From the NCBI GenBank assembly GCA_029194535.1, contig JARFXR010000001.1:1310721-1374720 (forward strand): a DNA stretch of 64,000 bases, written 5' to 3'. Within the stretch, counting starts at the first letter, position 1. Each line of letters begins with the position of its first letter. The position numbers and the translations under genes were made by a program. Below are positions 13,621 through 14,748 of this stretch, one piece after another. The stretch comes from Nitrospira sp. GTDB lineage: Bacteria > Nitrospirota > Nitrospiria > Nitrospirales > Nitrospiraceae. The notes under the pieces were generated by a model. The model did no database searches and was not told the origin of the DNA. It saw only the letters and a list, made by a program, of their open reading frames with translations.

Positions 13621-13744
13621 CGGCGGCACTCCTTTGTGAGTAGGTGAACGGCGCGGATGGCGTCCGCCTCGTTCCTGTCTGCGACTACGAGGCGCCGTCG
13701 GAAGGCGCGGTCGCCGTTCAGAGACGATGCGGACACATCATCAG

Positions 13745-13950
13745 CCCGCATTATTCACGAGAGTTCGTAACGAAACCGCCAAGACGCTACGCGAGACGGG
13801 CGCGCGGAGCATACCGCACTTCGTGTGGTCCGGCGGCTCATGCGGCGAAGCCGTTGTTCCTTGCGCCGCCGGAGAGATACCGTCGGCTGTCCGAGCTTGT
13901 CGCGGCGGCCTATCGGCGGTTGCAGAAGAAGTCATCGTGAATAATGCGGG
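13745..13950. mobile_element. MITE-like element with 16-bp perfect terminal inverted repeats
   Basis: CCCGCATTATTCACGA (13745-13760) is matched exactly in reverse complement by TCGTGAATAATGCGGG (13935-13950), giving a 206-bp unit. The interior is GC-rich and has no convincing gene. It sits in the 387-base gap between the PsiF-repeat gene and truA. I could not see a clear target-site duplication (flanks are ATCAG and TTAGG). The shape fits a non-autonomous insertion sequence derivative. Confidence 0.55.
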
Positions 13951-14007
13951 TTAGGCGGCGCCACTATAGCAAAGCTTCTGGAGACTGTCTGCAGAACAGG
14001 CGCAGAT

Positions 14008-14748
14008 TTATTGGTGGTAATCGACGTGCAGCAGAAACAGGCCGTGAGCCGGGGCGGTTCGTCCGGCCTTCGTGCGGTCTTTCGCCGCAAGCATTGCGGG
14101 TATTTCCTCGGCACTGCGTTGCAGATGGCCCACTTCCACCAGCGTCCCCACGATAGCGCGAACCATGTGTTTGAGGAAGCGGTCGGCGTAAGCTTGAATA
14201 TGCAGGTAATCGCCCTCGCGGTAGATCGACAATCGTTGAAGCCGGCACAGGGGATCCTCATTGTCGGTCAGCGACCCTTCGAACGACGTGAAGTCATGTG
14301 AACCGGTCAGCAAGGAGGCGGCTCGTTGCATCGCCTCGACGTCCAGAGGCTTGTGGATATGCCAGACGTGATGCCGGTCGACGGCCGAACGAGTCGGACG
14401 GTTGAGAATGCGGTATTCGTACAATTTACCGCTGGCCGCGTAACGCGCGTGGAAACCGTCCGGCATGATCTCAGCCGACCGGACCGCGATGTCCTTGGGC
14501 AACCTCGCGTTCATACCCTTGAGCCACTCTCGCGAGGTCCAGTCTCTGTCGATGCGGAAACTGGCGACCTGTCCCAATGCATGGACGCCGGCGTCGGTGC
14601 GCCCGGCTCCGACGATCGAAACCTCGGTCTGTGTCAGAAGGTGCACGGCGGTTTCGAGGGCTTCTTGAATGGTCGGATGGTCCGGCTGCCGCTGCCAGCC
14701 GGCATAGGCGGTGCCGTCGTACTCGACGATCAGTTTGACGGTGGCCAT
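14008..14748 (-). CDS. truA: tRNA pseudouridine(38-40) synthase
   Basis: Makes pseudouridine in the anticodon arm of tRNAs. The 246-residue protein has the N-terminal VEYDGTAYAGWQRQP segment (about residues 7-21) and the catalytic Asp in GAGRTDAGVHALGQV (about 47-61), followed by the second-half motif LKHMVRAIVGTLVEVG near residue 200. Length is typical. It lies 27 bases downstream of the amidase gene on the same strand and probably shares its transcript. Confidence 0.96.
   Translation of the reverse strand: MATVKLIVEYDGTAYAGWQRQPDHPTIQEALETAVHLLTQTEVSIVGAGRTDAGVHALGQVASFRIDRDWTSREWLKGMNARLPKDIAVRSAEIMPDGFHARYAASGKLYEYRILNRPTRSAVDRHHVWHIHKPLDVEAMQRAASLLTGSHDFTSFEGSLTDNEDPLCRLQRLSIYREGDYLHIQAYADRFLKHMVRAIVGTLVEVGHLQRSAEEIPAMLAAKDRTKAGRTAPAHGLFLLHVDYHQ

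Follow-up and report, generated by a model that had tools for sequence, protein, structure and literature searches.

A probable MITE with IS1380-type ends and a conserved branched fold beside truA in Nitrospira

What is the 206-bp sequence that adjoins truA at positions 13745-13950 of the Nitrospira stretch analysed here (64,000 nucleotides, hereafter the window), and how did it come to lie there? By inspection of the 64-kb window it is non-coding and framed by two arms that match in reverse complement at 16 of 16 bp with 174 nt between them, just as an earlier note, made from the letters alone, had placed them. The non-coding interior claimed by that note also holds, since the 98-aa ORF that spans the element (13644-13940) matches none of the Pfam families. 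With 206 bp and no transposase gene, the element is within the size range of MITEs (below about 500 bp). A Pfam scan identifies its neighbour as a genuine psiF-repeat protein. In the ORF table the psiF-repeat frame ends at 13629 and the truA frame starts at 14008, which leaves a gap of 378 bases rather than the 387 first given; both genes are on the minus strand. At up to 3 mismatches, the end motif occurs in the 64-kb window only as the element's own two ends (0.64 expected by chance). On its own, the 206-base element folds with far greater stability than its shuffled versions, at z -5.6 for RNA and z -5.0 for DNA. The parts of the element are listed in Table 1.

Table 1. Parts of the element and its flanks, in window positions
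Feature	Position	Strand	Remark
Left flank TCAG	13741..13744		what is left of the target duplication, which is YTAG in the family consensus; included in the empty-site alignment
Left terminal inverted repeat CCCGCATTATTCACGA	13745..13760	+	
Conserved left arm GTTCGTNACGAAACCGC... GCGCGCGGAGC	13761..13810	+	base-paired to the right arm in the family's consensus structure (alignment and fold)
Middle, non-canonical interior	13801..13895	+	78% identity over 95 bp to G000:C1:2218245-2218339
Conserved right arm GCTTGTCGC.GCGGC.TATCGGCGGTTGCAG.AGAAG	13895..13934	+	
Right terminal inverted repeat, CCCGCATTATTCACGA on the minus strand	13935..13950	-	
Right flank TTAG	13951..13954		the target's second copy; included in the empty-site alignment

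The element belongs to a dispersed family. Its own genome (G000; 3.98 Mb in 5 contigs, 99.88% complete) holds the end motif at 36 places with up to 2 mismatches, against 0 for the reversed control, so that the 16-mer is clearly not single-copy, and 11 places there score above 120 bits on one strand with the R1 model. A DNA search with the element matched 22 of 41 genomes, namely its own and 40 relatives. The genome with most copies, G017, a single contig from the same family as the source, has 162 end matches vs. 0 for the control. Across 295 genomes of the phylum, the canonical 209-bp copy finds matches in 68: 67 of these belong to the family of the source and one, G153, to its class; two candidates per genome were scored, and the count thus gives presence, not copy number. 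The R1 totals (G000 26, G017 109, G223 35, G308 13, G153 12, G001 5, G004 3) include both strands of each place and are likewise not copy numbers. No match to the window copy or the canonical copy was found among annotated plasmids and phages.

A scan of a named genome collection for the target plus the end motif gave at least 118 stretches, from which 80 loci were listed and examined. Among these 80, 44 are Nitrospira-type by title, including Nitrospira moscoviensis, and 36 are from other groups by title or carry no group assignment; those that are not Nitrospira-type include Acidobacteriota, Planctomycetota, Gammaproteobacteria, Myxococcota and others. At 44 of these 80 loci a second inverted end lies within 2.6 kb. 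The ends account for most of the R1 score in other phyla, where it is 40-65 bits (a 45-bp palindrome alone reaches 39.6), and a model without ends, R2, was therefore built. Outside Nitrospira-type genomes its matches are weak (Gammaproteobacteria L203, E 7e-4; Acidobacteriota L235, 0.008, and L213, 0.03; Myxococcota L275, 0.018; L207, for which no group is given, 2e-6), so that on these sequence comparisons the ends held in common are widespread across phyla and an interior held in common outside Nitrospira-type genomes is no more than suggested.

Several unusual copies were also seen. Minimal copies of 36 bp (L112:379-414, in G017) and 45 bp (L251:6461-6505, with CTAG flanks on both sides) consist of the ends as a perfect hairpin and little else. 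Three elements with family ends lie within 3.3 kb in a member of the Mariprofundaceae (L278:491-3798), with flanks TTAG, TTAA and CTAA. The apical hairpin (model positions about 43-101) occurs, as if it were a separate module, apart from the canonical remainder at L221:6843-6888, L236:2047-2105, L240:4863-4920 and L205:3401-3460.

The flanks of the family tell what the ends were joined to. For 42 distinct paired copies they read CTAG/CTAG in 11 and TTAG/TTAG in 6, with only 2 mixing TTAG and CTAG; the same YTAG thus stands on both sides in 17 of 42, a 4-bp duplication, and such agreement of the two sides is the pattern expected from a duplicated target. The window copy, with TCAG/TTAG, keeps three of the four bases and carries a decayed form of this duplication. 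The earlier observation that no target duplication is obvious is therefore right only in that the duplication is degenerate here; for the family it is wrong. At 16 of the 84 element sides the flanking TAG terminates an open frame at least 100 codons long, and 12 of the 15 proteins scanned out of these 16 have Pfam domains; since TAG is part of the target, copies are often placed exactly at stop codons.

The proposal that the truA-psiF gap be compared between relatives proved fruitful. In G001, the closest congener searched (TruA 86% identical), the gene order truA, psiF, cysE is the same and the locus (L119) is free of end-motif matches. With the element and one TTAG taken out, the alignment of the window gap to the G001 gap runs across the insertion site (TCATCAGGCGGCGCC vs. 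TGATT-GGCGGCGCA), where G001 reads ATT-GG, i.e. without a clean TTAG. Four other congeners (G003, G004, G002 and G010) have psiF beside truA and no element, in gaps too short for good alignment. End matches are absent from the congener truA loci L119-L123, and L124 has one chance-like match inside truA. For two further copies of the own genome, whose flanks are not conserved in G001-G003, no empty site was found; one empty site was thus found in total.

The CC-starting ends, together with a 4-bp duplication, pointed to the IS1380 family. In the first 25 genomes searched, the IS1380 elements have ends that do not match, and those of the nearest relatives were rejected as mobiliser on account of their differing ends. 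Across the phylum PF13701 has matches in 88 of 295 genomes, and complete ISs with matching ends, 1650-1705 bp long, were recognised at five of the 31 IS1380 loci examined (L140, L141, L142, L143 and L145). The IS of L141 is 1673 bp long and ends in CCCGCATTATTCATGA and CCCGGATTATTCACGA; the flanks are CTAG/CTAG in L140, L141, L143 and L145 and CTAG/TTAG in L142, and the three transposases tested, from L141, L143 and L145, reach 358-371 bits with NF033539, the IS1380 model (cut-off 180). Seven loci of the same clade (L144, L146, L147, L148, L151, L157 and L160) are partial or lack two matching ends in the fetched stretch. On plasmids, three of four IS1380 elements examined, including ISPosp7, have CTAG duplications and CCYGNATWTYTCAC ends; the ends of the fourth, which is IS1380A-like, did not resolve. 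An IS of the matching type and R1-model elements co-occur in G153. Judged by ends and target, the mobiliser is probably a subgroup of IS1380.

In the own genome a matching IS was not found, and the single PF13701 match there, below cut-off, is an IS4-like fragment; the suggested search for full insertion sequences with these ends thus gave five ISs with matching ends in other genomes of the phylum and none in this one. Among the 80 listed loci of named genomes no IS1380 transposase was detected near the end motif (best E 0.54). The MITE interior, compared with 14 IS loci, gave nothing below E 0.1, and since it does not match the ISs, an origin by internal deletion of an IS1380 element is unsupported. 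Two candidates from G017 were set aside: its four near-identical IS1380 copies (L322-L325) have other ends, CCCTATTCTCCGGCTAAGC, and the 1354-bp element, the sole long one there with both ends, is a family copy that holds an IS110-family IS and is therefore not the mobiliser. That IS (373 aa, PF01548 and PF02371) lies inside the copy's interior at L098:563-1916 (G017:C1:2769062-2770415), and the copy adjoins tRNA-gene-like sequence.

The earlier description of the element as MITE-like is borne out in these computations by the dispersed copies, the terminal inverted repeats, the 4-bp duplication of the family, the empty site in a congener and the matching ISs elsewhere. The element is very probably a copy of a MITE with IS1380-type ends and target that was moved in trans, is now stranded, and has a conserved fold. 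We infer that an IS1380-family DDE transposase with matching terminal repeats would bind both ends in trans, excise the element and join it to a YTAG, mostly CTAG, site, of which the four bases would be duplicated. The insertion between truA and psiF would have occurred at a TTAG-like site after the split from the nearest congener searched. The TAG in the target would bring many copies exactly to stop codons with the gene left intact, and the element, when single-stranded, keeps a conserved branched hairpin.

The window copy itself is divergent, with an R1 score of 135 bits vs. about 220 for canonical copies, though both conserved arms are kept. Its middle, about 13801-13895, resembles places in the own genome that are without family ends: besides the one given in Table 1, which is followed by a second copy, there is 82% identity over 73 bp at 214883 and 72% at 657140. 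Either a second repeat was captured or two families swapped parts. A GC-rich repeat, ACCGCACTTCGTGTGG...GCGCCGCCGGA, without family ends is found in the own genome at L114:546-775, L113 and L115; it is repeated at one place and is common to the middle of the window copy. The perfect ends had been read as a sign of recent activity. The ends, however, co-vary in the family (6 of 21 copies have A-U for G-C at pair 4/224), so that perfect pairing is a standing trait, and the divergence of the copy, its decayed duplication, its foreign-looking middle and the failure to find a matching IS in the genome likewise leave that reading unsupported. With no matching IS found in its own genome, the copy has the look of a stranded element and not of a recently active one, and it can probably no longer move unless a transposase arrives from outside.

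What sets the family apart most is a conserved branched fold that extends well past its ends. An alignment was made of 21 copies of 195-212 bp out of the 42, the rest being longer, shorter, with N or poorly oriented. In the consensus fold the ends close a long stem, which contains conserved asymmetric internal loops and leads into two hairpins. Of 66 pairs, 33 have changed on both sides; the share of paired cells is 95.7% vs. 30-45% for slid partners, and the covariation score lies above all 500 shuffles. A second set of 26 further copies (29 loci, 3 of them already included), aligned by sequence alone, gave 96.5% vs. 31-44%, with both-side changes in 28 of 66 pairs; in both sets the cells come from related sequences and are not independent. 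On the plus strand G-U cells exceed A-C cells by 49 to 14 and by 54 to 26 when two mostly-G-U pairs are left out. In 18 of 53 pairs A-C is the commoner. Plus-strand RNA folds better than minus in 46 of 47 copies, by a mean of -11.6 kcal/mol, and this advantage goes beyond dinucleotide shuffles by -6.6, in 41 of 47 copies. Orientation to neighbouring genes, as scored for 34 of 42 copies, shows no bias (+/- 11, -/- 9, +/+ 6, -/+ 5, unclear 3), and neither the window copy nor a canonical copy has an Rfam match at gathering score. These results point to a real fold, which may stem from selection on a single strand (RNA or single-stranded DNA) or from quasipalindrome correction.

A structured RNA that the interior forms or codes for, made mobile by the terminal repeats, would add to the MITE reading rather than replace it; the plus-strand fold would then be selected for a role of the transcript, or of single-stranded DNA of that polarity, in the life cycle of the element or for the host. 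The both-side changes in the two sets, the G-U excess and the plus-strand stability favour it, but the unbiased orientation, the missing Rfam family, the pairs richer in A-C, the relatedness of the copies and the non-canonical middle of the window copy tell against it, as does the minus-strand placement of both window neighbours, from which read-through would give the other strand; we hold it to be rather unlikely. Quasipalindrome correction, which is template switching during replication, could equally produce paired changes with no selection of the fold, and the near-perfect pairing of repeats and inner hairpins whose sequence is free (pair 134/167 is A-U in 10 copies, C-G in 5 and G-C in 5) is what it would leave. 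Against this, the asymmetric loops TTCGTNACGAAA opposite TTGCAGTAGAAG persist uncorrected, with many of their positions invariant in the 21 copies, and the G-U excess and the plus-strand stability call for an extra cause, so that this account too seems doubtful to us. Bolder, and unlikely, is the view that the whole family is a mobile structured RNA, a strand-specific branched module that adopted IS1380 ends to spread and whose single-stranded form is required in transposition or has an effect on the host; were it true, the weak matches seen outside the phylum would imply an old apical hairpin module, put to use again with the same ends.

Two readings do without a DDE transposase. The hairpin form, the extragenic place and the minimal copies with little beyond two ends (36 bp in G017) recall REPIN-like elements, whose mobility depends on a REP-associated tyrosine (Y1/HUH) transposase; yet to our knowledge REPINs make no target duplication, whereas YTAG is duplicated here and complete DDE ISs have matching ends and flanks, which makes this reading, already disfavoured, very improbable. 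A stable hairpin between two genes could also be a fixed part of the truA-psiF region, regulatory or a terminator, that is not mobile, but this is practically ruled out by the dispersed copies and the empty site, and the congener truA loci without end matches argue the same way.

The MITE reading connects an abundant repeat family of nitrite-oxidising Nitrospira and their relatives with one particular type of transposase and of target, and the IS1380-type target would account for the copies at TAG stop codons. The family also offers a well-resolved case in which to ask whether the hairpin of a bacterial MITE owes its conservation to selection of the RNA, to selection of single-stranded DNA, or to errors of replication. 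MITEs are a known kind of element, but this family, abundant in Nitrospira and relatives, is apparently undescribed: no account of it was found in the examined passages of PMC10969869 or the beginnings of other abstracts, and the words IS1380 and Nitrospira are absent from the main text of that review of MITEs.

With IS1380 ISs (NF033539 / PF13701), such as ISPosp7, the element shares related CC-starting terminal repeats and the 4-bp CTAG duplication; unlike them it has 206 bp, no transposase and an interior that does not resemble theirs. The ERIC, BIME-REP and REPIN sequences of enterobacteria and pseudomonads are extragenic, palindromic repeats that form RNA hairpins, and the Nitrospira family resembles them in its extragenic palindromic hairpins but differs in its ends, its target and its DDE-type duplication. 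The prokaryote MITEs, e.g. QMITE2 of Coxiella, are in the passages of the review that describe them short, non-coding and dispersed, with TIRs, direct repeats and a transcript predicted to form a stable stem-loop (PMC10969869). The Nitrospira family is like the elements so described in being short, non-coding, dispersed and stem-loop-forming with TIRs and direct repeats, and unlike them in its branched fold, its many both-side changes and its strand polarity.
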